From Hemileia vastatrix (taxonomy: Eukaryota; Basidiomycota; Pucciniomycetes; Pucciniales; Zaghouaniaceae), in assembly GCA_030280995.1 (NCBI GenBank), contig JASXTE010000010.1:26549823-26613822 (forward strand): DNA of 64,000 nucleotides, read 5' to 3'. Shown here piece after piece: positions 1-63,871 of this stretch. The notes under the pieces were generated by a model. That model ran no database searches and was not told where the DNA came from. It worked only from the letters and a program-made list of their open reading frames with translations. Position numbers and translations under genes: made by a program. Position 1 is the stretch's first letter; each line of letters opens with the position of its first letter.

Positions 1-1
1 T

Positions 2-1927
2 TGGGAGCGTGTATCAATTGTTCAAAATCATGGGGTACGATGGAGTGAGCTGAATAACCTTGAATATTGGCGTCCAACTGAATATTGCTCAATTGATGTT
101 ATGCATTCACATATGCTTGGCAACCTAAAAGATCACAGTCTAAGCTATTTTCAAATCCAAAATGCAGCAAAAGATCTAGAAAGAAAGCTGGAAAAGGATA
201 AAAATTGGCATGTAAGAGAAGAAGATGATGATTTCTTTTCTGATACTTCACTGCACAAACATTCGAAAAAACGTAGAAGTAGCTTAAGCACCACGAATAA
301 TGATGATGATGATACAGGACACACGAGACAGCACAAGCGGCAAAGACGTACGAGTTCAAGACAGTCATCAAGTCATCATGGACTAGATAATGAAGGATTG
401 GGAACAAATCGATCAAGAAGCCAGAGTAGGTCATCCAGCTCCAAATTTATTCCTCCATATAGCGATGTGGCCTCAGTACAGTCTCAAAGCAGTGACAGTA
501 GGAATTCATTGTATAACTTAAGGCAAAGAAGCATTAGCATATCACAGAGTGAAGGATCTCACTCATCAAATGAGACAGCTAGAGATGAAGAAAATAAAAG
601 GAAAGGTAAGGAGAAAGAAAATGAAGGTAGTAGTAATCCACGAATCACAGCAGCAGAGCTACAGGTTGTATGGAAGATGATTGATCAAGTAAGAAGACCT
701 TCCTGGCTAACACGAGTTCCAAAATCAGTAGGATCTAAAAAGGCAGGATCCCTCAAGGCAGCAGAATGGCACATGCTGTATACTCTCTACTTCCCTTTGT
801 CACTTATACCCCTTTGGTTTGAAAAATTTAAAGAATCTGAATCTTCAGCTTCCTCAGCTGATAAACCAAGAGAATATTATCTTCTCAAGTCACTTGTAAC
901 ATTATGCTCGATCACCAATTTTTTGACATTAAAAAATATACAGACTAATGAGCTTAAAGATCTAGATCAATTTCTGTTAGAGTATCGTGAGTGCCTTGAA
1001 GAGGGTTGGAAGAATATTAATGCAAAGCCAAATCTGCATATCACTCAACATTATCCTGAAATGATAAAGCGTCTTGGTCCACCATCAGGTACAGCTACTT
1101 GGTCTGGAGAGCGGGTGAATCATATATTATCTGAAATTCCAAACAATCACCATCCACGTATGTAATGTTTGTAAGAAATGATTTAAAAACTCAGCTGTGC
1201 TAATTTATTAATATTTACCACAGGAGAGATACCGCTAACAATGCTCAAACATTGGTATCGGAAGTCTAGGGTATTAGATCTTGGTGAAGCTGAAGATAAT
1301 GATCAATGTGAGACTAAAAAAATCCATATTGATCTCGATAAACAAAACAAATGGATCCATCTAAGTATGGCATTATTTACTAAATGGGTAAGGGCACGAA
1401 TGGGAAAAGAAACTTCAAGACGGGCTTTGACACCATCGGAGAAAAGTGGGGATCGGGTAGTTGAAAATGTAGCAAGCATATTGATACATGGAAAGAGGTT
1501 TACTAGTTACCATCGACACATTGCTAATTCAACAATTGAATTCTACTATGGAAAAGATAGCCAGTTTGGGCAAATTGATGATCTTTTCAGATCAAAGGAA
1601 GAGATTGATCAAATATATTTAATAGTAAGTCCTTTCAAAGAGCTCCGTCCAGAAGAAACATCAAAGGATCCCTATGAGCTTTTCCCACAAGTGCATTGTC
1701 GGTTAGTAAGAGTAGCCAAAGCAACTCAAATTGTGATTAAGAAAGATGCAATAATTGGACATGCAGCTACTGTCGAGCACAAAAAAGGAATGTTTGGAAT
1801 CAAAGACGAGGTTGTCACTGCCATTGGACTGCAGACAGTAGTGAGTGAAAAAATTAATCAAATTTATTTTCTGTTGACTAACATCTTTGTGTTAATTTGG
1901 GATTCGGGAAATTTGTAGGATTGGTGA
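2..1927 (+). CDS. Plavaka/CACTA-type (Tnp2-like) transposase, C-terminal part
   Basis: Transposase expected to cut and join the element's ends. The window opens inside the gene. Translation from base 2 gives LEYWRPTEYCSIDVMHSHML, the counterpart of the YWDPT...DxMHN motif of Plavaka/Tnp2 transposases. A Ser/Arg-rich low-complexity insert follows (about 205-640), then PSWLTRVPKSVG with LKAAEWHMLYTLYFPLSLIP, then a helical region ending GERVNHILSEIPNN, all in the usual family order. A 66-bp intron (1158-1223, GTATGT...CAG) restores the frame as HHPR/EIPLTM. A second intron at 1841-1918 (GTGAGT, a CTAAC branch site, TAG) would end the protein with Asp-Trp at 1927; unspliced, the frame closes at 1918. 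The visible part is about 593 residues without internal stops. The N-terminal catalytic part is outside the window. Confidence 0.82.
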
Positions 1928-2162
1928 TATTTGTAAATGGTGAAAGAAATAATTCAATGCTCGATTAAAAAATGCAATGCATCCAACTTACCTTATCATA
2001 AACCAGTGAACAATTACTTTGGTTGCTTTTATTGCGAGAGAACCCATGCTTTCAATGAGTCATTTTTATCTTAAATGTAAGAATGAAAGAAATAAAATCA
2101 TGATAATGAGAAATATGATAAAATTTTTACTTAATGAATGATCTTCTTGCTCATTCATCTAC

Positions 2163-2170
2163 TATAAATA
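2163..2170 (+). promoter_or_regulatory. TATA-box-like site in the 1928-2344 intergenic stretch
   Basis: TATAAATA lies about 175 bp upstream of the ATG at 2345, in an otherwise AT-rich gap of about 420 bp after the transposase. It is the only convincing core-promoter match I see there. The assignment to the downstream gene is by position only, and in such AT-rich DNA a chance match is possible. Confidence 0.35.
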
Positions 2171-2344
2171 GTTTGACCTTCCAACTTTAGCTGATAGCTA
2201 TATATTATTCACTTTATTTTTCGACAAGAGAACATACACGTTTACAAGACTATATACATAGTATCTTTTTTTACTTTAGCTTTGATAGGTATAAATTTTA
2301 ACAACTGATTATTTTTATTTTATTTTATTTTATTACAGTTCATT

Positions 2345-4021
2345 ATGGATGATAATTTTGAAGGGATGTCTGTTGACCCAACCGATTCTGATTGTTTTCC
2401 GCCTCAACATACTAATATTGGAAATACTCCTCCACCACCCTCTGCTGATCCACCTCCAGATGCATCTCAATCTGTACCACCTAATCCTAACCCACCACCT
2501 AATCCCAATCCAGGCCAAGAGTCTCATTCAGAACCGAGAAATTTTAATCCCAATCATCCTTCTGCTTCTGAAAGTGCTGATCAGCAAGCTGATCAGCTAG
2601 GAAGAGATCGGGCTAGTGAAGTATTGAGGGAATTTTTCGGAGACCAATCATCATCTGCTCAGCCTAACCAAGGAGCAAGCACAAGTGGAGCAGGTAAGTA
2701 AAATTTGTAGTGTATTCTTTTATTGAAAAATAACCAATTTAATTAACTTATTTGAATTGTTAGTGAATCCCTCAATCATTATGGGTATCAGTGATTACCA
2801 CAGACTCAATTCAGCAGAGTCTCATGAGCGAGAACGGGGGTTAAGGGCTGTAAGAGGCTTAGTTAGAAGGAATGATGTTCCCAGGAGCTCGGACAGTCTA
2901 AATAGAAATATTTACCACTTTCTGAAGTATTGTCTTGGGGGACCAACACAAATATCAAAATATCCTGCGAGCCCAACACCTTTGGAGATTGAAAATTGGA
3001 AAGATTGGAGCCAATTCAAACTAAAAACCATTCAAACTGTCCTAACCCAAGTCCAATCTTCTAACCGTGCCAATTCTGCAGCTGATCGACAATTTCTGAT
3101 AACCAATTCTATAGCCTTCTTGCGATCCAAAATTTGACTACCCGAATTTTTTCCAGCACCTGAGCCTCGAGGACTAAAAGGAGGAGCACCGATCCCACTT
3201 TCTGTCAAAAGAAACTTAGAGCGTGAATTGCAAGAAAAAGGTTTTCGGAAATTCACGTTTGATTGGACTTGCCGTGATTTTTCAGAATCAACTTGGAATC
3301 AAGTCATGGGAAGCATAGTATGCGACCACTGTACCAGATGGCTCACCACCTTGAATACAATCGATCAGTCAAAGCTTCAGTTCACTCAATGTGTTATTGA
3401 GAAATGGGTAGTTAATAAGGGGAAGGAGATGATAAGGTTGTTTGGGCAAGAAGAGGAAAGGGTAGCAAGAGAAAAGATTGAAAAGAGGGCAAGGGCACAA
3501 GTAAAACGTTATCGGACCAAGGTAAGTTTTTAATTTTACTTTGCTTTTTGTTATTATGAAGCTGATTTAGTTGGAATTCAGATTGCTAGTGCACGCTACA
3601 AGTTAGCAAGAGATCTCTGCAGTGATGTGCCAGGTTTTGTTGTGCTTTTTCATGATACTAGGTGCATCTCTGATATCGAGGAAGGCCCAGCACCAGCCCC
3701 AACTGCACCTATCCGAGCTATTCCTGGATGGCGAAATCCTGAACTCAATGATTTGTTTAAAAAATGGATAAGATGACAAAGGACTTAGCCCATACACCAG
3801 CTCAAAAAAAATCAACATTAAAAACATATTCAAGGTCATCAGAAAGGACAGTTGCACAAAATGGTATATTCAATGTTCCCAAATACCTCCCCAAGAATTG
3901 CTATTCAGCAACATTTTTGCAAGGATTATCTGTGAATGAACGTGAGTCACTTGGGGTTGGAGCTGATATTGATCTGGTAAAGATTCGGGAATCAATTAAT
4001 AGAGCATCAACATCATCATAA
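2345..4021 (+). pseudogene. Proline-rich transposon companion gene, broken by a stop and a frameshift
   Basis: I do not recognise the family. Three exons can be read: 2345-2693, 2764-3521 and 3582 onward. The introns of 70 bp (2694-2763) and 60 bp (3522-3581) both start GTAAG and end AG, and both keep the frame. Residues 1-115 are acidic and rich in Pro, Asn and Ser. The second exon encodes a globular, probably helical region rich in Arg, Trp and charged residues (SDYHRLNSAESHERERG...). Two lesions are visible: an in-frame TGA at 3135-3137, with clear coding on both sides, and a one-base shift in the A run at 3759-3764, after which the frame continues as MDKMTKDLAHTPAQ to 4021. It lies just downstream of the transposase, the usual place for a second CACTA protein, but no homology supports that role. 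Confidence 0.55.
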
Positions 4022-4236
4022 CTTAGGTATAACGGTGATCTTCTGTGTAATATAGCTATCTTATATTGAATTTTATGTATTCTGTTTTTTTTCAAAGCAG
4101 CTTGGTAAATGTTATAAAGTGATATTGAGAGAGAGTAACATTTTATTTAAGAAAAACAAATAATGTATGAGATATAAAAATGTATTTTCAACAAATTGAT
4201 GGTCCATACCTCTTTATGTCACATTTATGTATCCAT

Positions 4237-5751
4237 ATTAATTTCAATCGAATTTAATGTTGACCAATACATAGTGAATACACGCTATGCCACTTATACT
4301 TGCCAGGCATTGCTACCATTAAATATGCCAGTATCAAAAATTAATTTCGATCGAAATTAATGAGCATGATAATCATGAATTTCTGGAGTCAACTGCTTAT
4401 TTTTATGCATGGTGCCTTGCCAACATTAATTTCGATCGAAATTACTTTTGATACTGGCATATTGCATGGTGTCTATTCCTGGAAAGTGTAAGTGGCATAG
4501 TGTGTATTCATTACGTATTGGTCAACATTAATTTCAATAGAATTTAATATTGACATTTTCATATTGAACCCAAACCAGCAAACGACCCAAAAAATTCTTC
4601 ATAAAACTGCTCATTAATTTCGATCGAAATTAGTGAGCACCATATACATATTGAATGGTAGTTATATCTGGTGTGTGTAAGTTGTAAAGCTTGTGTTCAA
4701 TGTTTATTGGTCAACATTAATTTTGATTGAAATTAATATTAATGTGTAAATGATATTTACATGCTCAATATGCATTGTAATGTGTTTACTTAACAATAGA
4801 GTGCCCTACTTTTCATCTTACATAAAAATGCTTGGTAGCATGTCAAATTCAATTTTTATTAAAATTAATGTTGACATGTTACCATGCATAACAGTAAGCA
4901 ACTGACTGAATAAATTGATGATAATCATGAACCTTAATTTCGATCGAAATTAATGTTGCCAAGTGCAGATTGAAAAAAAGCTATGCCACTTACACTAGCC
5001 AGGCATATTTACTATTTATTATGTATTGGTCAACATTAATTTTTATAGAAATTAATATGGATATGTAAATTTTATATTTACCCTCAACATGTATAGTAAA
5101 TTTCAATACTTAAAAATACTTGCCGTCCTTTACATGTCATGCAAAAAAGCATTATATCATTTCAACATTAATTTTGATCAAAATTAATGTTGGAATGCCA
5201 TTATGCATTGAAACAACTAACTGACTGAAAAAGTTCATGATCAAAATGCTCATTAATTTTGATCAAAATTAATGTTGACCAATAAACATTGAACACAAGC
5301 TTTACAACTTACACACACCAGATATAACTACCATTCAATATGTATATGGTGCTCACTAATTTCGATCGAAATTAATGAGCAGTTTTATGAAGAATTTTTT
5401 GGGTCGTTTGCTGGTTTGGGTTCAATATGAAAATGTCAATATTAAATTCTATTGAAATTAATGTTGACCAATACATAATGAATACACACTATTCCACTTA
5501 CACTTTCCAGGCATATATACATGCAATATGCCAGTATCAAAAGTAATTTCGATCGAAATTAATGTTGGCAAGGCACCATGCATAAAAATAAGCAGTTGAC
5601 TCCAGAAATTCATGATTATCATGCTCATTAATTTCGATCGAAATTAATTTTTGATACTGGCATATTTAATGGTAGCTATGCCTGGAAAGTGTAAGTGGCA
5701 TAGCATGTATTCATTATGTATTAGTCAACATTAATTTCGATCGAAATTAAT
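4237..5751. repeat. 1.5-kb imperfect inverted repeat (foldback)
   Basis: The left arm, about 4237-4737, is the reverse complement of the right arm, about 5252-5751. Paired palindrome copies have coordinate sums of 9988-9989 throughout (for example 4237 with 5751, 4425 with 5563, 4737 with 5252), so the arms carry almost no net insertions or deletions. The centre (4738-5251) is not inverted: 4716-4954 and 5035-5273 are direct repeats about 319 bp apart. Copies 17-20 (5860-6173) lie outside the symmetric part. By eye the arms are highly similar, with scattered substitutions. Confidence 0.88.
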
Positions 5752-6173
5752 ATGGACATGGACTATGCATAAAATTCCTATAAGTATAGGTAAGCTAAGC
5801 AGTTAGATAAACTGGTTTGATCAAGTACACCATATAAAAATTGATGTTTTAATGCCTTGGTTAATTTCGATCAAAATTAATATTAAGCCATGCATGTTGA
5901 ATTTTATCTATGTCTGTGTAGTCCATGTGAAATGGCTTGTATTCAATATGCAGGGGTCTATATTAATTTCGATCGAAATTATGAGGTTCATTGCCTCATA
6001 AATTTGATGGTTTCTGTCAGTGTTTCATGCATGGTGCCATCTGATACTTGTTGATTCCTATCAAAATTAATTTCAACACCAATATATTGAATACAAACCA
6101 TGGCACTTACAGTACTTGGTCATAGCTAAAATTCAATATGCTAGTCTCAAAATTAATTTCGATAGAAATTAAT
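4237..6173. repeat. Array of about 20 evenly spaced 22-bp palindromes
   Basis: Each unit is an 11-base half site, ATTAATTTCGA or a variant, followed by its reverse complement. Copies start at 4237, 4340, 4425, 4527, 4613, 4716, 4848, 4933, 5035, 5167, 5252, 5355, 5441, 5542, 5627, 5730, 5860, 5962, 6050 and 6152. Start-to-start spacing alternates between about 102 and 86 bp, with three steps of about 131 bp. The commonest core is TTTCGATCGAAA; some copies have TTTTGATCAAAA or a mismatch. Between units there are shared stretches such as GTTGACCAATACAT and CCACTTACAC. There is no coding potential. The array lies between the 3' end of the companion gene and the five-exon gene. It could bind a symmetric protein or act as a structural or replication element; function unknown. 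Confidence 0.9.
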
Positions 6174-7206
6174 CAGGATCCATGAAGTTTATCAATAGTG
6201 TATGAGTTAAGTTTCAAGTCATATGTTTCATCATTTTCTTGCACCCATTTCTAGGTTATCTCAACAATTTTTTTCAAGTTTTATTATATTAATCAAAACT
6301 GTGGTAAGTTGTGAAAAATTAGCTAATCCAAATCTCAAATTGAATATTAATATTTTAATAATTTTGAATGTTGCTTAAGGTATTTCATTGGGTGATTCAT
6401 AAAAATATTTTATCAACTTAGTAGTCCTATAACTTTTGAAAAGTAACAATTTTGGTATAGTTAGGGACAACAATGCAATATCTTGTGCAGACTAAGATAT
6501 ATTGCAAAATAAAACTATTCAATTTTTTTTTTCCCTTAGTTGTATCCAAGTTTATCAAAGGTTTGGTCACGGTGCCCACACCCTAGCCTGACACTCCTCC
6601 TGTCACTTAAAAAACAAATTCTTATCTTAAATTCTAATGTTACCAATTTTATATTTATAATTCATTTCTTGTTTGATGAGGCATATCAGTATATATGTGA
6701 ATCTCGCATTGTCATCTGAAATTAAATTTAACAAATATTCATAAAGGATTATCCTTTTTTTCATATAATATACTAATTAAGTGTATCTCCATTGTTTAGG
6801 AGTAAATTCTAATTTAAAAAATTTTGTATTTACCCGTGGCAATTTGAATATGGGATATAAATTTGTTATTATTTGTTTTTCACACTAAAAGTCCCCAAAG
6901 AATTACTAGTATTTTCTGTTAGCTACATCAAATTTCGCTTCAATATAAACAGATTGTGATTTAGCATGTTACTCAGTTTACCCCACTATGAATAATACAT
7001 GTTAAAAAAAGCTCAAATAATATAAAATCCCCCTCTTTATGTTTTCTGTTTCTTTCATCCTCACTTTAATTTTAATCTTATTCAATTTTTTATCCTATTA
7101 AAATATCAACTTCAATTTTCTAGAATAGAGTTTCTTATAATTATTCATCATATTACATCATAATTTTTTGATATCGAATACTTTTTTTTAATATTCATTA
7201 ATCAAT
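6174..7206. other. AT-rich intergenic stretch upstream of the five-exon gene
   Basis: No reading frame, tRNA or strong repeat is visible. The palindrome family stops at 6173. Pyrimidine-rich runs around 7030-7100 lie just upstream of the ATG at 7207 and would suit a fungal promoter region, but no specific site can be named. Confidence 0.5.
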
Positions 7207-9639
7207 ATGTCTAGTATACAAAATCCTACACCTCCACTTTGTATGTATATCATGTTCCTCTCTCTTAATTTATATATTTCACTTATGTTCTATATCTTTT
7301 TTTTTTCAAAAATTTGATTTTCCAGCACCCAAATGTGTTTCATCCCACTCTCTGATTGATACTCGCTTTGAAGCTTTTGAGCTTGCACCATGTCTGCCAC
7401 ATGGCATGGCACCTAACCCTCCTGTACTTAGCAATGAGAGGCAGGAAATAACGAGAGTTCAGTATCGCAATTTACTTGAATTGGCTAGAGATAAAACAGA
7501 AGAGCTTGTCAAGATCCTTAACAATAATCCTTCTCCTTCATATTTATCTAACCCTTGTAATGAATTACTCCAATATGTGAAAAGCCTTGAAAAATGTATG
7601 TTCATCACCTTTTTTGTCTCCTTTTAAATTAGTAGATAAGATTATTAATATTTTTTTTTCTTCATATATATTTGTAGCTTATGAGGAGGGTATGATTCCT
7701 CCTGATGAAGTCATTGTCATTAGGGATGATGATGAGACAGATGAACCATCAGCTTCAACTCATGCTTCAACTTCTAAGGAAAATCTTGAAACACCTGTTA
7801 TCCGCTCCAAGAAAAAGAGATTATCCCAAGGCTCCTCTTTTGTTCGACGTATTAAACCGGCTTCTGCTAATGAATTTTCTGATGTATCAAATAATAAATC
7901 TCAAAAAAAAAGCAAAGGTTTTGATAATGAGTATATTCTTGTTTCCTTTTTTTTTTATTGTTATTCTTTTATCTTTAAAATTCAATCATATATCTCTTTT
8001 ATTGCTTACATATTGTACTTTTTATCTTTCTTTTGATATTTTGTACCAGAAACTCACCTGCTGTAGATTGTTCCATCCATAAACGCCCTCTCCCTGATGA
8101 AGATGATGAAAAGAGCAATGAAAATAGCGATGATCAACTATCAGAATATGAAGCTATGCTTGTTCATCAAAAAAAGCAAAGTTTAAAATCTTCTTCAAGA
8201 CATGTTGATATGTTTGATAAAGATGATGATTCAAACAGCTCATCACCGAATTCCTTCATTTCTAAGAAGCAATACCCATCACCTCCTAAATTACCTACTT
8301 TGACCTCTTTGAAAGCTTCTCTACCAATGAAATCAACTCCAATCAAGATATCGAAAAAACCTCTAACTTATTCACCCTCAGTTCTAAAAGAATCTGATTT
8401 GCAGGAGGAATTCTGTAAAATTCATAATTTTTATAAAGGTAGAATCAGCACGGCAAAGGTCCTAAGGTCGTGGTTGGAAATTGTTACTCTCCTCAAATTA
8501 CGCTCTTCTACTTATTCCCAAGAACCCATGTCAAATATTCCAATGTTTACTTTTCATTGGGAAAAATCTTGTGGAGAAGATTGGCTTTCAAAACTTACTG
8601 AGTTATGTAAGTTACCATAATTTTTAGTCTTGACTTTTGTTCTTTTACTTATTTTTTTTTTCCTTTTGTAGCAAATATTTTTTTAGAGATTGATAGCTCA
8701 CAGCTATGGGTACTCGATAATATTGATTTCAAAAAAATGGAAGATTTATGTGATCCTGATGGTTTAAATACTGAAATTCTTTCCTCAACAAAGAAAACGG
8801 ATCACCCTGAATCCAATCTTATCCGAATGCTCATGAGATTAATGATCCCAAGTGACCACTGCCGTTCTTCATGGGTATCTCTTATATCATCTTCACTTTA
8901 TCTGACCGCACATGAATTCAGCCAGCTTCCATCACATCAAAACATTAACTCAGATTGTCCAATTGAACGTGGTCTTCAGCTTCTAGCTCACCTTTCAAAT
9001 CTGAAGAGTCCGATTTCTGATGGCTTAGAAGTTGGTCCCACTGCACTTCAAACCCGTGATATATCAATGTCAACTCTTCTTCAAATCAGCAATATTATCA
9101 TTGATATAATTATGTCAATTATCATTCTTAAATCAAAATATTGTGCTGCAACAATATCAAGTGGCAAGACTAGTGAAGCTCAACAATCAAGTAAGAAAAA
9201 CGAAAATACTGAACTGACTATAAGGAGAGAGAAACAAAAGGCTGCACTAAACAAAATAAATTCTGAATACTCCCACCACCGATATCAATCTTTCACATTC
9301 TATATAATTGATGGTGTCCGTGGTTTATTTCTGAGCTCTCAAGATCATAGATTGGCTTCAGCAGCTGATTGCTTGGAGGTAATATCAGAAGTTAAGTTTC
9401 TTAATTTACATGAAAAAAAAAATCATTTGATGGAAGAAATAATTTGGAAAAATTTAAATAACTATATTTTAACATTAATAAAACCTTTTATAGGCAAGTG
9501 TGATCCATTTCCTTTAAAATTTGATACCCCAAGTCCTCCGGGAATTGCTAGGGCTATTTCTGCAGATTTTCTTAATCACTGGAGCTCCATTCAGCCAGTA
9601 TCACCTTTTTTTGCTAAACATAGCCTTTCAATAAATTAA
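7207..9639 (+). CDS. Five-exon gene of unknown function carried by the transposon (693 aa)
   Basis: I do not recognise this protein. Exons 7207-7240, 7326-7595, 7678-7930, 8050-8606 and 8672-9639 are separated by introns of 85, 82, 119 and 65 bp, each starting GT (GTATGT twice, GTATAT, GTAAGT) and ending AG. All junctions keep one frame and the sum is 2082 nt, which supports both the model and the start ATG in a 34-base first exon. Residues 1-110 are mostly helical. An acidic and basic low-complexity stretch with Ser/Lys clusters (KSKKKRLSQG-like, DEDDEKSNENSDDQ) suggests a nuclear protein. The C-terminal half (about 340-690) looks globular. The last exon might hide another intron near 9379-9494, which would give a shorter C-terminus. 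It lies between the palindrome array and the TET/JBP gene, convergent with the latter. Confidence 0.68.
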
Positions 9640-10438
9640 TATTCCAACATGTAAATAGATAAAGTTCTTTCTATATGATATATCTTGTATAATTCAAGTT
9701 ATTTTCCTTCAAATACGTCAAAAATGTGACCATCTTTGAAATTTATTAAGTAACCTTTGACATGATTTTCTAAATTAATTATTAAAAAAAATTATTGTAA
9801 GTCCAGCAATAACAAAGATTTTAAAATCTACTTATATGATTTCAAATACTTGTATTAAATTCTTAAATATTTTATTGTTTATATAAAAATATGATAACTG
9901 CTCTAGTTTTGTTACTTTACCTTTAATATTATATAATCTATTATTTATTACAAATATTTTCGTTGATTGTAACATTTTTAATCAGAAGTAGAACAATTTA
10001 AATAATTAAATGAGTACATTCTTAAAAAAATACAATTTAATCTATCATTGATTCAAAATTCTTTCTTCAACTCTTTATTATTACCTTTTTTATTAATAAG
10101 CCTGTTTGACCTAAAATACTATACAGTTAATTTGGTAGCATTAAAAGCACATTTTTATGGCTAATATATTTCAAATTCTTTATTATAGTTTTTTTTATTT
10201 TAGAACCTTTGCTACCAATTTAATAAAAATGACATTTAAAGATTTCACAACTTATATATTTCCTCAAAAGTAAATCAAATTTTCTTATAATATTATGAAA
10301 AAAAATTATTTTATTTCACAAATAAAAGAAATAGATAATACTATAATTATCAAAACTGAAAATGTTACAGCTACTCCCAGTATTTATCATGTTTAAATTT
10401 GCATTAAGTTGTGTATATATAATATAAATTTTTAATAT
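9640..10438. other. AT-rich gap between convergent genes
   Basis: This holds the 3' flanks of the five-exon gene (plus strand) and the TET/JBP gene (minus strand). It is rich in A and T runs. I see no frame, RNA gene or repeat. Confidence 0.5.
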
Positions 10439-11649
10439 TTATATATCTAGATTTTTTAGATTTGTCTTAACATTAGATAAATAATACTTTGCTGATTCTA
10501 TTTCTTCCTCTATTAAGTCATCTCTTTTCAAAAAAACTCTCAAAGCACTAATCAAATATTCTAACCTAAATTTTTCTGTTTTAATTTCTAAGTATTCTGA
10601 AATATCAATATCAAAAACATTAAGCTTTTCTATAGCATGAAAAAGTCTAGTGCTGATTTGAATAGAAGAACCTATCCTAGTGAAGCCAGGAATTTCATGA
10701 CATCTTGAGGTAAAATGCCTTAGTTGATTGGCAGGCCATAATGTCACTGTTATTCCATTAGTTGCTTCAAAGTTGATTTTACTTCGAATTTCGGGAAACA
10801 TAAGTTCTCCACCTATTTGTCGTGGTTGGGTCTTATCATACTTCATATGAATGGTGTTTTTTTCTGTATCTTTAGGAAAAAATATTCCTAAAGTATACTC
10901 ACTTGCATCCTTATCGAGATGAACCTCATTAGAGAACCCATTACCATTCCCTCCAGATGTCCAAGTTAAATTACTAGCAAACGGTACACCGTCTTCTTCA
11001 CTAGAAACTTTTGAAAATCCAGGAATACCAAGTTTTGCGCAAAGATTAGTTGCCTCATTGTACTTTACATATGATATTTTTTTAAAAAAATATTCAAAGT
11101 ACATTGCAATCCTCTTCATTCGTTTTTTATATTCATCCGTTTTTACAATATCATCAGTGTATTCATCTGCAAGGAAAAGCATTCAAAAATTCAGTATTTA
11201 AATTAAAAAAAGTGATACTTACGAATATGTAAAGATTTCTTTCTATCTAAAATAAAGCCACCACCAAACATTTTTCCAAAACCACCAGCTCTTTGATGAT
11301 AACCATTATTTTTAATTTCATGTTCGCAGTAAGAAAGATCCTTAATGCATCGCACCGTAGCTTCTAACATATCTAGTTCTTTGAGCTCATGAATTTCAAA
11401 AGTCTGCACAAGAACATTAGGTATTAAGACACCTTTTGGTTTATAAATACTACATCCAGGAAAAAAATTGTAATAATTATTGCAATCTGTCATATTATTT
11501 GCATAAGATCGTGCATAGAAATGTGGCTTCTTCCCGTTTGTATCCATTCCAAGAGCGTTTACAAGTTTCATTCCAGTAGCAATGTCTTTCGCCCACCTAT
11601 TGTTAGAGTTCTTCCCTGGCCGTTTTTTTTTTTTCAAATTGTTACTCAT
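10439..11649 (-). CDS. TET/JBP-type 2-oxoglutarate/Fe(II) dioxygenase
   Basis: Probable nucleic-acid base dioxygenase; known TET/JBP enzymes hydroxylate 5-methylcytosine or thymine using Fe(II) and 2-oxoglutarate. Two exons, 11223-11649 and 10439-11166, are joined over a 56-bp intron (GTAAGT...CAG), giving about 384 residues. The C-terminal half has the double-stranded beta-helix signature: EVHLDKDASEYTLG with the His-x-Asp pair near residues 225 and 227, the distal His in QLRHFTSRC near 293, and the 2OG-binding Arg in GFTRIGSSIQIS near 306. All four key residues are present, so it may be active. The N-terminus is lysine-rich (MSNNLKKKKRPGK), possibly nuclear. An upstream ATG at 11703 is in frame, but that stretch looks like an intron end (CTCTTAG), so I chose 11649. 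Substrate is not deducible; other 2OG oxygenases are less likely given the spacing. Confidence 0.83.
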
Positions 11650-11900
11650 TGATGGTTCAATCCTAAGAGAATTCAATTTTGATTTAAAATAGAAAAAAAT
11701 CAAAAATTAGAAAATAGTAACATAATTTCAATTATCAGTCAATGATACCTTTAACTTTATCATATCTTCAATATTAGAAATACAAAAGTTAGCATATCTA
11801 CATATTAGTAAATTTATATACTTTTTCTTTATTTCAAATATTAAGAAAGCGTTTCAAAGGTATACTTTATTAAATTATACATATAAAGAGTATAGCTTTA

Positions 11901-12241
11901 TCCTGTATGCATTCAGCAAGTACGAGATTTGGCTCTACACTTAATATTAATAATATAATGAAAGTATAACTCCAATACACTAGTAATATTAAAAAATTTA
12001 CGGAATTATGATATCCACATATATAAAATGAAAAATCTTGCTCTGATCAATATATTGACTTAGAAAGTTATACTTCAATAAATTATTAATTTTTAAATTG
12101 TAGCATTGTCCTGTATGCTTTCAGCAAGTACGAGACTTTGAAACAACTTAAAAATCAATAAATTAAAGGTAAAGTACAAACAATCTAATTATTATTATGA
12201 AAAGCAAAACATTATCCTGTATGCTTTCAGCAAGTACGAGA
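11901..12241. repeat. Three 27-bp direct repeats upstream of the TET/JBP gene
   Basis: Near-identical copies lie at 11901-11927, 12109-12135 and 12215-12241, starting TCCTGTATGC and ending CAAGTACGAGA, with one variable base in the first copy. They sit in very AT-rich DNA 250-590 bp upstream of the minus-strand gene. The first and third are each followed by AATATTAATAATATAATG-like sequence, so the repeated unit may be longer. Position suggests a promoter or a transposon-protein binding cluster. Confidence 0.75.
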
Positions 12242-13395
12242 TGATGTTTTACTTTTCATATTAATAATATAATGGTTGAGAAAGTATTAAAGAAATATAG
12301 AAAAATGATAAGCAAAACATGAACTTACATGTCTATAAAATCTTCTTCCATTTGTAGCTGATTGATCAAAATTAATTATAAAGTTTATTTTATAATCACT
12401 GTTTTAAAAAATAAATGGTTAGATAAATAAATTGAACATTTTTGATAAGGAATAAAGAAAAGTAAATTGACAAACAAATAAAAAAACTTTAAGTTAACTG
12501 AAAAAGAATTTTTTTATAATGAATCGAAAGGGTACAGTAAAAGATACCATAAAAATAAATTCAGAATTAGAATCATTAGATTAACTTGTCAAAAGTGTAA
12601 AAAAGTGTAACAAACCAAAATGATATGAAATGCAATAGCAAGAAAAATTTGCTTACCGGTAATCAGATAAGGTCAAGAAAATAGTACCAATAATTCAAAA
12701 TGATAAAGCAAAAATATGATTGATAATTTTTGAAAAAGGTAAGTGAGAAAGAGAAAGGAAAAATAAATTGGGTGGCAAACAGATGTATATATCATGAATT
12801 TTCACTGATCACATTTTCAAAAAAATGCAGCTCTCCAAGTCATATGATAAACTTCATCTAAATTCCAAGAATGATGTTGCCAAGGCACTTTACACAGCAT
12901 GATCATTTTTTCCTATGCATATACTAATTCCAGCTAGAATTTACTTGGCTGCATGTTGTACAGATGCACATTTGTGGAACACTGAATTTCACATCTAAAA
13001 AAAATTGACGCCACATAATTCTAGCTACCATGTTTCACGTAGCTAAAAAACATACACTCATCACATTTAAATTTACATTGCGCCAAAATTAATTCATTTT
13101 TGAATTTTTTTAAAGGAAACTATAATGTGCACCACCTATTTCTAAAATATGAACCTCCGCACCATATTAAATTGGGAGACTTTTAATTATGCAATTTTTT
13201 TGCCGTGACCTTTTTCCTGATCTTACTTGGTTCAAAATATTGAAACATGGCCAATGTTGATGAAAGAAACATTTGATTTTGTTTCTATGTGTAACAATGG
13301 AAGGCTGTTTCTTACTGGCGAAAGAGTGTTGTATATTTTATTTGAACAAATTTTTATTTTTTTATGTATTTTATTTAAAAAATTTACTTTTTATT
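12242..13395. other. Stretch without recognised genes
   Basis: AT-rich, with only short spurious frames. Around 12830-13060 the base composition is more balanced than its surroundings, which may mark an old insertion, but I cannot assign it. Confidence 0.45.
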
Positions 13396-14251
13396 GCAGC
13401 CAGATTTATACTGGCTGCTTTTTAGAAACCTTAATTTATGACCCAAGCCTTTGAAATTGGCTTGGGTCCCTTACATTGCAATTTAGTACTTCCAGCCAGG
13501 TTTCCCCTGGCTGGAAGTGTCTCTTTCAAGCAATCGAAGTCGCTAAAAGCGACTTCGATTGCTTGCTGTAATGTTTGCCACCCTCCCAGCTAATTTACTA
13601 GGCTGGGAGGTGGCCAAAGCAGTGTGCAACGCGCGTTGCTGCTGCAAGTAACGCGCGTTGCACAATCGCTACCATATTTCATGCAGCTGATATCAAGTCA
13701 GCTGCATGAGATATGCGCAGCATGTGCAATGCGCGCTGCATGCAGCAGAAACGCGCGTTGCATGCAGCAGCAATGCAGGCTGCATGTGCTGCATGCAGTG
13801 CATTGCACAGCCAGAAAAAAACTGGCTGTGCAATGCACTGCATGCAGCACATGCAGCCTGCATTGCTGCTGCATGCAACGCGCATTTCTGCTGCATGCAA
13901 TGCGCATTACTTGCAGCAGCAATGCGTGTTGCATGTGCTGCATGCAGTGCATTGCACAGCCAGTTTTTTTCTGGCTGTGCAATGCACACAGAGAAACCAA
14001 AGTCCCTGCAAGGGACTTTGGTCTCTAAAATGGAAGCGACTTTCCCTACCAGGTGCAATCTGGTGGGAAAGTGAGAGAAACGTTAGACCGAAGTTGTTTG
14101 AAAGCAACTTCGGTCTTAAAAACATTAAAAATCATAAAAAAAAAAATGAGAAATGTAGAAAAAAAAAAAAATTAAAAATTAAAATGTGAGTAAAAGAAAA
14201 AAAATAAGTTCTAGTGATACCAAAAATCCAAGCCAATTTCATTTGGCTTGG
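13396..14251. repeat. Train of about 13 consecutive, mutually unrelated hairpins
   Basis: Perfect or near-perfect stem-loops follow one another roughly every 46 bp: 13396-13418, 13441-13467, 13488-13518, 13527-13565 (18-bp perfect stem, 3-base loop), 13574-13618, 13624-13663, 13680-13708, the long hairpin 13727-13909, then 13947-13987, 13997-14021, 14039-14072, 14085-14116 and 14228-14251. Stem sequences differ from one hairpin to the next. The region is GC-richer than its neighbours, with many TGCA and GCGC steps. An A-rich stretch (14117-14210) lies between the last two. Frames exist on both strands only because the sequence is palindromic; they encode repetitive Cys/Ala/His/Met peptides and I do not consider them genes. 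Confidence 0.85.
13727..13909. repeat. Longest hairpin of the train, arms of about 88 bp
   Basis: The arms pair around a 7-A loop at 13815-13821 with only a few mismatches. The arms are themselves built from smaller TGCATGCAGC-type palindromes. Its central 17-bp stem is repeated in inverted form at 13947-13987 around a 7-T loop, so part of this hairpin was copied in the opposite orientation. Confidence 0.85.
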
Positions 14252-16405
14252 TTATTTAATAATTAATTTTTAATACATTAAATTTAAAATTCAAACACCA
14301 TAAAATATATGAATTTTTTTTATATGAATATTATAAATTTAATCTACCTCTTTCTCATAATTATATTTATAATTTTGTTTTTTTAATTTTTGACATTTAA
14401 GTTTATTTTTTGGAAATACAAAATTAAATTTTCAGCTAAATTTTTTAGTAAGGTAAAATAAATTATAAATTTGACATTTTGTAATTGAATAATGAAAAAA
14501 ATTTTAAATTTATTTAAAAAATATTTTTGTTAGAAGAATACAAATATTTTAAGGGTAGAAATATGGTGCAAATTGTAAGTAAAAAAAATTATATTTTTTT
14601 TTGTGAGGGGTTATTTCTATTTTTAAAAATATTTTTCAAAAACATTCATTAAATACTGAATTAAATTACTTTGAAACTCAAATTTTTTGTAAAATAATTA
14701 AAAATGAAATAATAATATTGTTGTATTTGATATAAAATTTGAATTGGTAATATTAATGTCTCTTTAAGTAAATTTGAAAATCATTTAAAAAGACCATGTT
14801 GATAAGTACTTCATTTTTGATATACAATGGTTATATATATATCTTATATATATTTCTTGAGTGTTATTTTTATATACATTCAATAAAATTTGTAATATAA
14901 AATGCCATTTAATAATTAATTAATGTTCAACTTAGTTATAACAACTTCATATTTAATACCAGCCACTAGTATTTACTTTTTAATTTAAAACTCCAATATA
15001 ATATGAGAGTATCCTTATTTTGTCTGTATGTAATGAACAACAATAACAGACCATAAATGAGTGGGTAGTTAATTACAATAAATAGTTGAAGAATAACCTA
15101 TAAGAAATGATAAGTTTATCAAAAAGAGTACATTAAAAAAATATACTTTTGAATTTTTTTTGATATAATTTGGGTAGTTAAATGAAAATTTAAATTATCA
15201 GACATCAAAATGGATAAAATCTAAAAGTAGTGTTTATATAATAAGCCTCATAAAAAAAAAGGATAAAAAATCTACTATGTAACTAAATTATTAAATATTA
15301 AGGTATTATTAAAATTATTGAAAAACTTATTTTACAGTTATAATGAAATCTAAATGTGAAAATAATGGTGGGATAATAGTAAGACTATGTTGAAACACTT
15401 TAATTTATACATACTTTCAACTATGTTCAGATAAAAAAATTGTTAAAATTGTATAATAACATCTAGTTAATAGTGATGCAATTTTATTTAGATCAAGAAT
15501 AAATTTTTCTGAGGAAAAACTAATTAAATTGAGATATGGCCATCTCCTTTCAAGAGATAGAATAATAATAAAAATTTAAAAAATTATAATAAGTATTCTT
15601 AATCACCATTTTTGAAAAGTCTCTAGTAAAATTCATTATAATATATCATTCATTGATTACATTATATGGAGTTTCATCTTGAAGTAGTGATGTGCAGCTT
15701 TGAACTTATGTTATGAAAAACAAAAAAGTTAAAAAATATATAGTTATACTAATGAAAAAGCCAAAAATAAAAATACTATTATAAATTAAAAAAATAAAAC
15801 TACATAAATTTTATTCTGCTCTAATGATGGAAGGGTACTATGTATGAATTTCCACATGTTAAATCCAAACCTGCTTTAAGGCTAGTTTACAGGTAGAGCT
15901 ATTAAGTTTCCTTAAATTCTAAAAATAACTTATGCATTTTACTAATTATTTTTTTCTTGTTTCTTTCCAAAGTTGTTAGAGTTGCTTAATTAATACTGTT
16001 ATCTTGATTGTAAGATATATAATTTTTTTTGAATACATGATTTATTGTTTCAAAAATTATATTATAAATTTAAATCATTTATTTCATTTTCTAAAGCTTC
16101 ATTGTCAAAGACACAACTCCATTTTCTATTACTTAACAAATATATAAAATGTGATAGTAAAATTTAAGGAATTTTCTTTTTTAGAGGGTCAAACTATATT
16201 GTGAAGATTTTTATCTAGAAATTCTTGTACTCTAAAACCAAATAATTTTCTCCCTTAAGTAAGCCATTTCAAAAATATGAGAATATAAACAAGAATATTA
16301 ACTTATCTTATTTTTATTTTCTTTACTGAAAGTTTTAGTTCAATCCCTTTTTTTATATGACATTAGTATAAAAACATGGTTAAATGCTACTATATAATTA
16401 ATTTT

Positions 16406-16410
<5 letters not shown>

Positions 16411-16439
<29 letters not shown>
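16411..16439. repeat. TA microsatellite
   Basis: Uninterrupted TA dinucleotides for about 29 bp. Confidence 0.95.
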
Positions 16440-16446
<7 letters not shown>

Positions 16447-18153
16447 TTAGAACGTCATCCTTTTTTATTTACTTGAATAAATGGCTCAATTATAATACCC
16501 AACACTTATTAATGTTTCCCAAACTCAATAACAAATTTCTCATATGAAATATTAGCTTCTAATATAAGAAGTTTATCTATAGATGATATTCAACATGTGA
16601 TTTTACTTTTTAGATTCAGCTAAAATTAAACAAAAGGAGAAATCATGCATATGTGTATAAATGGTAACCATATGTTACTTAGAGGATTGTGAAATTCACT
16701 CATCAGAATGGTTTAAGTATTAAAATAAATTGAGGTCATTATTTTCTAGTATTTGAAACTAATTAGGAAATTATTCTAAAAATATATTTTAATGTGTATC
16801 ATGTTTAAAAAGTTGGAAATATGATTTTTGAAAATTGTGAGTTTCTTATGAGATACCAAGCTTTAGTTTACATTGTTTCAAGTAGAATAGAATTTTAGTA
16901 TTAGAAATTGAAAGCAATGTACCATTATCAGATTTTAACTGTTTTCTACTTATAGAATGATTACATAACATTAAACATTATTTAAATCAAAAAGGTTTAA
17001 AAGATATTTAGAGTTTTACCAAATTTCACCATTTATTAATCTTTGATTTGAAAACAAACTATGATGTACACTCACTAGAAATAAGCAATCCCAATTTTAA
17101 CATAATTTATCAATCCAAAAATAATGAGTCAATTAACATGAAAATATATATTATTTCAAAACCAATTCTCTAGATTTAAAATATGATGCTTTAATGAAAA
17201 ATTATTACAAAACTTTAATGCAATGAAGTCTCTTAAAAAATTCAAAAATAGAATATCAAAACAAGTAATTTCTGCAAAAAAAACTACTAACTATTGTAGA
17301 TAAAGCATAAAAATAAGTCAAATTTTTTAAAAAAATGATCTAACAATATTTATTTTTGTTAAAAAAATCAAAACATTGTTAAGTTTGCTTGTTATAATAA
17401 TGTTAAAATCCACTAAACATTATCTAAAGGTGGTAAAATATGTTAAAAATAAGTTGAATTTTATGAGATAAAAATCAACAATTTTGTATCATTTCCTGTT
17501 GTGCTATGACTTTATTCCACCCTTTTTATCTGATTCTTCCAGTATTACTTTGCTATGATCACTAGTTTTCAAGTTAAAATTTACAAATGTTCATTATACT
17601 TGATAATATGAAAAATAACTCAAACTTTTATAACTACAAAATAAGATTTTGTAACTCCTTCTTTCAATCAATATTTGAAGAAATTTTAGTTTATTTGAGT
17701 AATGATTTTAAGAATAACAAAAAAATTGAAATTCACAAGGAATTATTTCCAGAGACTATAATTATTTACTTGTGTAATGCATGAGCTACTTATCAATGAT
17801 GTAAAACATCAGAAAAGTAAGTTATAGTTATAAATCTACAGATTATACTGTTTCTGGTATATATATCTTCAATAAATCTTTTAAACTTATCTTAGCCTAC
17901 ATACCACACAATAGAAAATCATTATATTAAAAAAGGAAAAAATTCTATGATAATATCATAAAGAATGATAACCATGGATTAATATTCCATAAAAATGGTT
18001 AATAATATTTTAAGAGAACCTAAATCAGTATTCTTTCATCAAAATATATCCTTTTTGTCTTTGTAATTTATTCCAAACAAATTTTTTGAAAGTTGAATCT
18101 ATATATCTAATGCCAAAACCACTATTAAGTTCCCTCTTAGACTTTTTAAGAAA

Positions 18154-18154
18154 T

Positions 18155-18185
<31 letters not shown>

Positions 18186-18186
18186 T
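18154..18186. repeat. TA microsatellite with one interruption
   Basis: TA dinucleotides over about 33 bp, broken once by TG. Confidence 0.93.
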
Positions 18187-19892
18187 ATTTATCAAAAATT
18201 GAAATAAAGAATAAAAACATAATTTTATTTACCTTTAATTATTTAAATATAGAGTATTTTCAGAATGCATTGTGGTTACTTGTGAAGGTTAGAAGATTTG
18301 AAGTTGGATTTATGAGTTTTTAGAAGGGCAAATATTGTAAAATTCTTTCATAAATATTTATTTCATAGTTTCAAATGTTGAAATCTACAAACTAATGGGA
18401 TTTAAAATTATATTGAGATTTAAAATCTGTTTTCTACTCAAGTAAAATAAAATAAAATGATGATATCAAAATTGAAATTAAGTTTAAACTTTTGATATGC
18501 TCTATCTTCAATTTTATTGATAGTGCATCAAAAATTTAATAATATTTTTTTCCTTCATCACTTTTTACATAAAAGATAGTTTTATCATTTTATGAATTAA
18601 AGATTGCTTATATAAATTTAACATCTATGTCAACTGTTTATGACTATTAATCTATATAATAAATTTTTTAGAAGAAAAAATAACATCAGTATATACTGAC
18701 TTTGAAATTATTCAATTTAAAATAGTTTACAGGTAGATAATGAAGGGTGATTTCATTTTTGAATATGAACTATAGAAGTCTTATTTTATCAATTTTAATT
18801 CTTTTTGAGCTCAAATGTATCCACCGCAACTTAAGTAAGAATAAAAATTATTTTTATTGAAATTTACATGAGAAAGTATGCCTATTATTCAAAATCAAAC
18901 TTGCTCTAATGGTGTTTTTCAATCATTATTTCCATTCATAACAATAAAAAACATTTCAATTTGCTGATGTTTTAGTTTTTGATATCCCCAAGTTTATATC
19001 TCAGGTGTACTATTCACAAAATTATTAAAAATATAATTTTCGAAATACATGATAAACTTGAAAGTGAGGGGGCATTAAATTTTTAAAAATGAATTCTAAA
19101 TTCAGGATGGATAGTATTTTTTCTATTTTCACAAATGAACAATTTTTCGTTTCAATTAATCCAGAAAGAAAATTTTGTTGTAAGCATATTATATTATATT
19201 TATTATGATTTTAAATACTATATTTTCAAGATTTGTGTTTAATATTTCCTGTGAAAGTTAATGTTAATGTGAATTTAAAGTAAGCTTGAAGAAATTTAAT
19301 CAATAGTCATATTGGATATTTAAAATAATATTTTGCTCCAATCTTGAATCATCCTGGGCTAAAAAATATCCCAAATAAGGTTTTTGTGGGTCAATTTGGA
19401 TTTAAGTAGGATTAAGTGAGGTTTAATAAAGGACAGATAAAAGGCTAAATTCATTACTAGTGACTTTTTTCTCAAAATAGTTATAAAATATTTATCATTC
19501 TGGACTCAAGCTTCAATAAAGTTGAATTGAAACAGAGATAATTTCTAGGAGCACAACACCATATTTACAAAGGTGTAAAATACCTCAAATATTACTCATA
19601 ATATAGGAAGGCAAGGAATCTACAAAATTCACATTTCAAACGAGGATTTATATTTTGAATTTGAAATTGAGAAATGGAATATTATTTTCCAATTTAAATA
19701 TCTATTAGTCATTTTAACAAAAGTTTTCAGTAATCAGATTGAATTTTGATGGTATTTTGTTGTAGATTAATCATTTTGATGAGACATTTACTCAAAATTA
19801 CTGGTTTCGTTTCTAATATTCCATGTGAAATTCATTATGAATCTTTTTGAAAGTGAATAGTTGACATATTGGATATGCAAAAGCTTATGTTA

Positions 19893-19963
19893 GATCAAAG
19901 TGAGATCAAAGGGAGCTTAACTGATGATCAAATTAGGATTTTACAAGATCAAACGGTGATCAA
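19893..19963. repeat. Phased subterminal GATCAA repeats
   Basis: GATCAA occurs at 19893, 19904, 19926, 19947 and 19958, with spacings of 11, 22, 21 and 11 bp, about one or two helical turns. This lies about 170-240 bp inside the right terminus. CACTA transposons typically carry short subterminal repeats that bind their transposition protein, so these are candidate binding sites. Confidence 0.7.
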
Positions 19964-20090
19964 TGTAGGTTCATCTTGAGCTCAATCTGTGACAAATCTC
20001 TGACTAAATGTAAGGCCAAACAATTTCCTACATGGTGATGATGTGTGCATAATTCAAGCATAGATTTGTGGCTCAACGGAGCTCAAGCAA

Positions 20091-20130
20091 GGGGTATTGC
20101 TAGCAATACCCCCCCATTTTTTCTGTGGTG
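20091..20130 (-). repeat. Right terminus of the giant CACTA-like element
   Basis: Read inward on the minus strand the end starts CACCACAG, continues through an A run and a G run, and meets a 22-bp perfect palindrome (20091-20112) centred on CTAG. The palindrome ends exactly 18 bp from the terminus, the same geometry as both ends of the small element at 40252-40512. AGT at 20131-20133 is the presumed target duplication; the other copy should lie left of the window. Confidence 0.75.
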
Positions 20131-33106: not shown

Positions 33107-33430
33107 GTGCAGTTTGTCCTCATGCTGGAGGCCCAAAAATTGATCTTGATGATCTTCCTTCTTCATAATTTTCTACAGTTTAACCTCATGCTGGAGGCCC
33201 AAAAATTGATCTTGATGATCTTCTTTTGTCATAATTTTCTGCATTTTAACCTCATGCTGGAGGCCCAAAATTTTATCTTGATGATCTTCTTTCTTCATAA
33301 TTTTCTGCAGTTTAACCTCATGCTGGAGGCCCAAAATTTGATCTTGATGATCGTCTTTCTTCATAATTCTCTGCAGTTTAAACTCATGCTGGAGGCTTAA
33401 AAATTGATCTTGATGATCTTCTTTCTTCAT
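33107..33430 (-). repeat. Five 66-bp coding tandem repeats in B1
   Basis: Exact 66-bp period: the landmark CATGCTGGAGGC (plus strand) occurs at 33121, 33187, 33253, 33319 and 33385. Translated on the minus strand the unit is 22 residues, with KKEDHQDQ and LGLQHEVKLQ as landmarks, likely a charged coiled coil. B2 has only two copies (63277 and 63343). Confidence 0.92.
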
Positions 33431-33892
33431 TATCTTCAGATTTTTTTCCTGATTTTCCAAAATTATCTTAAAATTTTTATCTTCTTTTCTTGAGTTTTCT
33501 TCTGTCCTAGAAAAATAACCAGGGGTTTCCCCAATGATCACAGGTGTGGCCAAGGTAATGTTTTTGAAAGGTGAAGAAGAAACCCTAGTGGTTCAAAATT
33601 GGGAGGACTTACATTTAGACCCCAATCTCACCACTCCAAAACTTTTCCGCATATCCTTCAATAAAGATATATAACCAATCTTCTTCCTTGAGCATGAATT
33701 AAAAATAATTGAGAATCTTGAGAGAGAACAGAGACTTGATAAAAAACCTGAAGAAAACTTGCAGAGAAGAGAAACATTAAAAAGAGAAGTATGAAAATCC
33801 ACTTGGTATATCTCCAAGGGAGCTGACCTACTACAACCTGGGATTTCCTCATCTTGGGAAGAGGTTGTAGCACTAGGGTGATCAGCCCTCAT
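33431..33892 (-). pseudogene. B1 spacer ORF, N-terminal part
   Basis: From ATG 33892: MRADHPSATTSSQDEEIPGC, a hydrophobic stretch (LLCKFSSGFLSSLCSLSRF), then MRKSFGVVRLGSK before a stop at about 33593. The frame then resumes as TPVIIGETPGYFSR, leading into the 66-bp repeats. B2 has the same protein at 63215-63871 without the stop. Function unknown. Confidence 0.6.
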
Positions 33893-63214: not shown

Positions 63215-63871
63215 CTAATCTTCAAATCTTGATTCATCTTCTGAATCACATCTTCTAAAATTTTGCAGTTTATCCTCATGCTGGAGGCCCAAAAATCGAT
63301 CTTGATGATCTTCTCTCTTCAAAATTTTCTGCAGTTTAACCTCATGCTGGAGGCCCAAAAATAGATCTTGACGATCTTCAAAAAAATATTTTGCATCTTC
63401 GTTCTTCATTATCTTCAGATTTTTTTCTTTATTTTCATGAATTATTTTGAAATTTTTATCTTCTTTTCTTGAGTTTTCTTCTGACCTACAAAAATAACCA
63501 GGGGTTTCCCCAATGCTCACAGGTGTGGCCCAGGTAATGTTTTTGAAAGGTGTAAAAGAACCCCTAGCGGTGCACAATTGGGAGGACTTACTTTTAGACC
63601 CCAATCTCACCGCCCCAAAACGTTTCCGCATATCTTTAAATAAAGATATATAACCAATCTTCTTCTTTGAACTTGAATTAAAAATAATTAAGAATCTTGA
63701 GAGAGAACAGAGACTTGATAAAAAACTTGATGAATACTTGTAGAGAAGAGAAACATTAAAAAGAGAAAGTTTAAAATCCATTTGGTATATCTCCAAGGGA
63801 GCTGACCTACTACAACCTGGGATTTCCTCATCTTGGGGAGAGGTTGCAGCACTAGGGTGATCAGCCCTCAT
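63215..63871 (-). pseudogene. B2 spacer ORF with two 66-bp repeats
   Basis: From ATG 63871: MRADHPSAATSPQDEEIPGC, a hydrophobic stretch, MRKRFGAVRLGSKSKSSQLC, GETPGYFCRSEENSRKEDKN, then two 22-residue repeats (LGLQHEVKLQ, LGLQHEDKLQ) and an acidic end closing at 63215. It is separated from the RT frame by a TAG at 63215-63217. Its FGxVRLGSKSKSS segment is repeated in the RT frame, so this ORF and the next share an old duplication. Function unknown. Confidence 0.65.

Follow-up and report, generated by a model that had tools for sequence, protein, structure and literature searches.

Arrays of CpG-cored palindromes in TET-carrying EnSpm/CACTA transposons of Hemileia vastatrix: a candidate docking platform for anti-silencing

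What could a run of twenty similar palindromes at nearly regular intervals be doing in noncoding DNA of a rust genome? Such a run, made of 22-bp sites like ATTAATTTCGATCGAAATTAAT, lies in a 64,000-nucleotide stretch of Hemileia vastatrix DNA (hereafter the window; C194:26549823-26613822 in the 747.6-Mb genome). An earlier note, made from the letters of the window, had placed twenty sites between 4237 and 6173 and listed their steps, and we reproduced both (Table 1), the steps from site 1 to site 20 being 103, 85, 102, 86, 103, 132, 85, 102, 132, 85, 103, 86, 101, 85, 103, 130, 102, 88 and 102 bp. The alternating 102/86-bp spacing claimed along with them stands as to the steps but not as a strict alternation, since three steps measure 130-132 bp and sums of neighbouring steps range from 186 to 235 bp. 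Five of the 20 sites are perfect palindromes and the poorest is that at 6050. Scanning the 64-kb window for matches of at least 16/22 revealed three places outside the array, the best with 17. The array has 12 palindromes in which 10 or all 11 dyad pairs match. Dinucleotide shuffles (200) gave a mean of 0.12 and never more than 1, and array-sized pieces of the remaining window a mean of 0.31 and never more than 2. A chance AT-rich feature as the origin of the array is ruled out by these shuffles and by the zero count of the genome control described below.

Table 1. Window coordinates of the palindrome array, its sites and the parts of the element that carries it.
Feature	Position	Strand	Remarks
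EnSpm/CACTA element, part inside window	1..20130	+	further 6,964 bases left of base 1
Transposase gene, 3' part	1..1918	+	assignment of exon 1241-1918 inferred
Gene A	2345..3775	+	predicted exons 2345-2693, 2764-3066, 3157-3521, 3582-3775; one weak splice donor
Array	4237..6173	.	20 CpG-cored dyad sites, 3 spacer classes
Inverted repeat inside array, left arm	4232..4737	+	97% to right arm
Inverted repeat inside array, right arm	5252..5756	-	about 5285-5453 looks converted from left arm in young subfamily
Site 1	4237..4258		one CpG
Site 2	4340..4361		perfect palindrome, two CpG
Site 3	4425..4446		two CpG
Site 4	4527..4548		no CpG
Site 5	4613..4634		two CpG
Site 6	4716..4737		no CpG
Site 7	4848..4869		degenerate, no CpG
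Site 8	4933..4954		two CpG
Site 9	5035..5056		no CpG
Site 10	5167..5188		perfect palindrome, both CpG replaced by TG/CA
Site 11	5252..5273		perfect palindrome, both CpG replaced by TG/CA
Site 12	5355..5376		two CpG, within apparently converted tract
Site 13	5441..5462		no CpG (older-copy consensus: two), within apparently converted tract
Site 14	5542..5563		two CpG
Site 15	5627..5648		perfect palindrome, two CpG
Site 16	5730..5751		perfect palindrome, two CpG
Site 17	5860..5881		one CpG
Site 18	5962..5983		two CpG
Site 19	6050..6071		most degenerate (12/22 self-complementary), no CpG
Site 20	6152..6173		one CpG
Gene B	7207..9639	+	predicted exons; junction to last piece 9494-9639 out of frame as set
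TET-like 2OG-Fe(II) dioxygenase gene	10439..11649	-	two predicted exons
Right terminal inverted repeat	20091..20130	-	contains GGGGTATTGCTAGCAATACCCC

The array belongs to an element of 27,094 bp, whose borders we set by comparing four copies. Its ends, CACCACAGAAAA...TTTTCTGTGGTG (CACC...GGTG), lie in inverted repeats, the one outside the window at L027:8838-8877, and each contains GGGGTATTGCTAGCAATACCCC, a 22-bp palindrome that lacks CpG and differs from the array motif. All four copies read are flanked by 3-bp target duplications (agt, ata, ata and tat). From left to right come genes for an SNF2-type helicase and a tnp2 transposase, then gene A, then the array, then gene B and finally a minus-strand gene for a TET-like dioxygenase. 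A Transposase_21/tnp2 match at L028:4627-6966 (E 2.3e-15) marks the transposase as tnp2/EnSpm-type, and 11 of its 12 homologs with a named organism come from Puccinia or Austropuccinia, the other from Sparassis. The SNF2-related helicase gene is near the left end (L028:24-1520), with RAD5- and Rad54-type proteins as its nearest, weak, solved relatives, while the TET-like gene (2OG-FeII_Oxy_6 match, E 2.7e-22) lies within the borders shared by the copies. Gene A had no Pfam match, the protein search gave no homolog at E<=0.01 for gene A or for gene B (searched with 607 residues, the last exon excluded), and in neither product could a DNA-binding domain be recognised. According to the portions of Kojima (2025; PMC12730594) available, TET+ EnSpm elements of Pucciniomycetes have in common CAC..GTG ends, a 3-bp target site duplication, an EnSpm-like transposase, a TET/JBP gene and a rust-like host. 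Because its 5'-CAC..GTG-3' ends, 3-bp duplications, transposase and TET-like gene match these rust families, the carrier is, on such sequence characters, a TET+ EnSpm/CACTA DNA transposon. Ends, duplications and transposase rule out a viral origin, and a search of a phage collection gave no match.

Some further features of the window may be recorded here. Upstream of the TET-like gene start, the motif CAGCAAGTACGAGA occurs three times (11914, 12122 and 12228) in a longer repeat at 11904-12241, each time with a CpG. Nine perfect stem-loops with stems of 10-30 bp cluster at 13440-14116, which is GC-richer with a CpG observed/expected ratio of 0.60, and alignments break at this cluster in two of three other copies, suggesting length variation. 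The right 5.9 kb of the element (14231-20130) has 22% GC, a CpG ratio of 0.11 and no listed open reading frame of at least 100 amino acids. Right of the element, positions 26733-63871 hold retroelement pieces with RT, RNase H and integrase domains, which we take to be Ty3-like, and a 66-bp tandem repeat in five copies (33108-33437) has a similar 66-bp counterpart in two copies 30 kb away (63251-63379).

The 20 sites contain 21 CpGs against 2.7 expected, and the spacers between them 5 against 43.9. Nine sites have two CpGs, three have one and eight have none, and all 21 sit in the centre TTTCGATCGAAA, that is, in TCG on both strands. Outside the array, the CpG observed/expected ratio is 0.15 right of the element in the window, 0.39-0.46 in parts of the element and 0.11 in its right noncoding part. 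From what could be consulted of the respective papers, TCG is a hypermutated context in Pucciniomycotina repeats (PMC12730594), and CpG loss in transposons of the rust Austropuccinia psidii has been ascribed to 5mC deamination (PMC8063080).

A search for the site elsewhere in the genome found the 20-mer TTAATTTCGATCGAAATTAA at 2540 exact places in the rust's own genome and its reversed control at none. The 50 places listed, in the first 17 Mb of one contig, form 20 clusters, and by extrapolation the family has many hundreds of copies. Near-identical arrays number at least 40 (40 of 1573 candidates scored), and 57 of 58 scored transposase candidates (58 of 5795) are free of stops. Young arrays at eight places, the window and L001 being the same place, differ at one position. 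Selecting for at least five palindromes per 2 kb flagged 19 of 37 sequences, each with the array of this family; among the other 18, L036 alone holds part of one, and tblastn of the 37 sequences revealed no transposase or TET family besides those of this element. Fourteen older copies (L029-L042), all on contig C2, have the same array over the part that they cover, which is incomplete in L035, L036 and L042, with 0-2 gap columns except in L040, where the main match starts at base 205 and 105 gapped array columns inflate divergence. In L035 and L036 element DNA flanks the array too.

These older copies record what becomes of the sites after insertion. Palindrome CpG bases had changed at 107 of 613 positions, 95 of them by C>T or G>A, a lower bound, since each copy was picked because one exact palindrome or more survives in it, and this makes CpG loss look smaller than it is. 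This is about the rate of spacer CpG bases (25/126) and about six times that of other C/G (209/7239; 13/340 in sites and 196/6899 in spacers). A/T bases changed at 256 of 18182 positions, with the A/T parts of sites (67/4968) drifting like those of spacers (189/13214). Intact palindrome CpGs range across the 14 copies from 22/23 down to 2/23. Nonetheless, the young form retains 21 palindrome CpGs where the older-copy consensus has 23, even though the spacers of different units are only 57-70% identical. Since the CpGs decay in older copies yet stay in the young form, selection, shielding or conversion is needed, and we conclude that the active lineage keeps its core CpGs by selection, by shielding or by steady conversion from intact sites. 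Single sites are dispensable, given that the young subfamily spread without CpG in site 13, for which the older consensus has two.

Using the distant homolog P0001 as query, and scoring 55 of 5446 candidates, we retrieved this family (family 1) and two others. From each diverged family one locus was chosen for its open reading frames and placed by transposase, gene order and TET-like gene. Both relatives have a palindrome array, so that arrays occur in three of three families. In family 2 (L043), whose transposase is 64% identical, 21 sites of GTGTCCAGCACAAGTTCGGCCGAACTTGTGCTGGACAC type lie at 5914-8409 with steps mostly of 137 and 102 bp, and 30 CpGs fall in sites (28 in the central 10 bp) and none in spacers, where 37.9 are expected. 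In family 3 (L044/L045), whose transposase is 47% identical, 18 scored sites of GTGTACCCTGATCTTCGCGCGAAGATCAGGGTACAC type have steps mostly of 82 bp; sites hold 27 CpGs (25 in the central 12 bp) and spacers 5 against 33.4 expected, the 18 being those that pass 23/36, with more degenerate sites falling among the counted spacers. Over whole palindromes CpG is below expectation in both (30 against 56.9 in family 2 and 27 against 42.8 in family 3), and it is the placement alone that is notable. Read outward, the half-sites of families 1, 2 and 3 are T-CGAA-ATTAAT, C-CGAA-CTTGTG and g-CGAA-GATCAG. They share CGAA at equal distance from the dyad, hence a centre TTCGNNCGAA with two CpGs; the outer arms differ between the three families and TTCGNNCGAA is the sole part common to their sites. 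Gene A has relatives in family 2 (52% over 255 residues) and family 3 (35% over 256), as have gene B (61% over 46 residues up to the end of the piece, and 31% over 347) and the TET-like gene (53% over 222 and 40% over 238). In families 1 and 2 genes A and B flank the array; in family 3 its neighbours are gene B and the TET-like gene. The earlier note had named relatives lacking the array, or arrays with irregular spacing, as evidence that would count against its reading; as worded neither turned up, both relatives having arrays, with another motif and another spacing. Two further transposase copies (G000 C128:19766217 and C26:30481370) have other match borders and could belong to family 3, as older members, or to a fourth family.

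As the best explanation we propose, with about as much conviction as reserve, that the array serves the TET-carrying EnSpm/CACTA transposon, in whose noncoding DNA it lies, as a docking platform with many sites, most likely for anti-silencing. A reader that is dimeric and self-specific is suggested by the dyad symmetry, the dense repetition, the constancy of the CpG core and the arms peculiar to each family, and the dimeric protein that had been suggested from the window fits the dyad sites. Such a protein would probably read the two CpGs of TTCGNNCGAA, perhaps in a methyl-sensitive manner, together with the family-specific outer half-site, and some 20 sites would lend it avidity and self-specificity beyond those of a single site. 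Once bound, this factor, which may be encoded by gene A or gene B, would keep or make regulatory DNA of the element unmethylated, possibly by recruiting the element's TET-like enzyme for demethylation and perhaps with help from the SNF2 protein, so that the element's genes could be expressed. The arrays themselves would grow and homogenise through copying and inverted-repeat conversion, while the outer motif turns over between families. Anti-silencing is favoured because a TET-like gene is present in all three elements and the CpG core is apparently kept. Of the roles first suggested for the array, a methylation platform is thus still the best guess, in keeping with up to two CpGs per site, CpG-poor spacers and the TET-like gene of the element. 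Several observations count against this platform reading, namely the failure to recognise a DNA-binding domain in gene A or B, the arms of the recent inverted repeat, which vary in sites as much as in spacers, the spread of the young subfamily with a CpG-free site 13, the CpG-free state of eight of the 20 window sites, the different array slot in family 3, and the low whole-palindrome CpG counts of families 2 and 3. Other ways of preserving the CpGs are conceivable too, namely conversion that draws on intact sites and shielding by whatever protein is bound.

Among the alternatives, the one that survives best, and which we still consider unlikely, takes the sites as internal binding sites of the transposase or an accessory protein that act in transposition, by end pairing, by titration or by self-repression. 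Binding of an element protein to arrays of short motifs is a known feature of CACTA elements, and in plants TnpA binds their subterminal repeats. The array indeed belongs to the element and its motif differs between families, as this alternative expects. The distance to the left end, however, is about 11.2 kb and that to the right end 14.0 kb, no other site of at least 17/22 exists in the element, the terminal few hundred bases typical of CACTA subterminal repeats included, and the ends carry the different palindrome GGGGTATTGCTAGCAATACCCC. Plain subterminal transposase sites are rejected by this absence of sites elsewhere in the element, and binding for transposition in general leaves the constancy of the CpG core unexplained.

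An enhancer or silencer unrelated to methylation, through which a host factor would control gene B or neighbouring genes, appears improbable to us. Its appeal lies in the position of the array, which genes A and B enclose in families 1 and 2 and which here ends 1.03 kb before gene B, but in family 3 the array follows gene B and precedes the 3' end of the TET-like gene. In addition, a host factor should keep the outer motif constant across families that reside in one genome, and the arms differ.

How the array was built bears on a third alternative, a self-propagating satellite in which a functionless palindrome was spread by inverted duplications, its CpG cores being remnants of the founding unit. 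The spacers fall into classes L (79-81 bp, nine members), S (63-66 bp, seven) and X (108-110 bp, three, of which the third, at 108 bp, has a weak likeness to the other two hardly above control). Long and short spacers are homologous to one another and occur in both orientations, which bears out the unit copying that the earlier note had suspected. Its further claim that the palindromes are kept while the intervening DNA drifts also agrees with the mean pairwise identities, which are 86% among sites, 70% among L, 65% among S and 57% among X spacers, and 48% among shuffled L spacers. Within the array, an inverted repeat has arms of about 506 bp that are 97% identical, differing at 4 of 132 site positions and 12 of about 374 spacer positions (one a gap), so that between these recent arms no extra constraint on sites is visible. 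The young form differs from the consensus of eight older copies at 35 positions, 29 of them between 5285 and 5493; the two arms match at 485/501 positions in the window and at 459/501 in that consensus, and the sites at 5355 and 5441 of the young form are reverse complements of those at 4613 and 4527. The simplest reading of these sequences is that the left arm converted the right arm in the founder of the young subfamily. Homology of spacers in both orientations, the apparent conversion and the arms without extra constraint on sites all suit a satellite, which we nevertheless regard as quite improbable. CpGs decay about six times faster than other C/G and the spacers have drifted to 57-70% identity, so that the cores of a functionless satellite of this age should be free of CpG, and three arrays with unrelated outer sequence have one and the same core.

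Regular spacing is inherited from copied units and reflects no nucleosome rule, the steps of 85, 103 and 131 bp arising because spacer classes were duplicated. A nucleosome-phasing or replication-origin array, to which stretches of the array with neighbour sums of about 188 bp had lent some colour in the earlier note, is hardly credible and its nucleosome-repeat rule is rejected, given sums of 186 to 235 bp here, spacings in related arrays of mostly 239 (137+102) and about 82 bp, and the lack of helical phasing (Rayleigh R <=0.24 at each of five periods between 10.0 and 10.6).

The platform reading has a precedent in a different kind of transposon, the VANDAL/VANC system, where arrays of motifs direct anti-silencing. 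VANDAL elements of Arabidopsis are Mutator-like. As reported in the consulted portions of two studies (PMC5735166 and PMC10398659), VANC21 binds a nine-base motif that is dense in noncoding VANDAL21 DNA and changes between related families. The rust arrays are similarly dense motifs in noncoding DNA of a DNA transposon in three of three families, and here too the motif is family-specific and changes between relatives. They differ in transposon type and kingdom, and in having long dyads with a fixed CpG core rather than a nine-base motif in one orientation; moreover, the rust element encodes its own TET-like enzyme, unlike what is described of VANDAL/VANC. By analogy, the arrays may work like VANDAL/VANC, but they do not belong to that system, their element having EnSpm-type ends, target duplication and transposase. 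With the subterminal repeats of plant CACTA elements they share the presence of multiple binding-site-like repeats, and they differ in being internal long dyads that are absent near the termini. The element type is already known, but the accessible part of the literature on CACTA or fungal giant elements held no report of such arrays. The main text of PMC12730594, as far as it was available, mentions a palindrome once, at TET gene borders, and contains no mention of subterminal or internal repeats.

The comparison suggests that these are motif arrays which address a transposon to its own anti-silencing factor. A fuller version, which we offer tentatively and hold to be possible rather than probable, is a fungal anti-silencing system independent of VANC, in which TET-carrying EnSpm elements would mark themselves by family-specific dyad arrays with the double CpG TTCGNNCGAA as their constant part. 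A protein of the element would read the arms and aim the element's own TET at the element, not at rivals or the host, and arms and reader would co-evolve. Several rust transposon lineages carry a TET-type gene, whose function, in the available portions of Kojima's account, is without experimental validation (PMC12730594). For such TET enzymes the arrays offer a concrete candidate targeting sequence, in which the CpG core is conserved and the arms are specific to the family, and of which many natural copies of graded age exist. Should the proposal hold, sequence-specific anti-silencing would have arisen convergently a second time, here in elements that carry their own demethylase.
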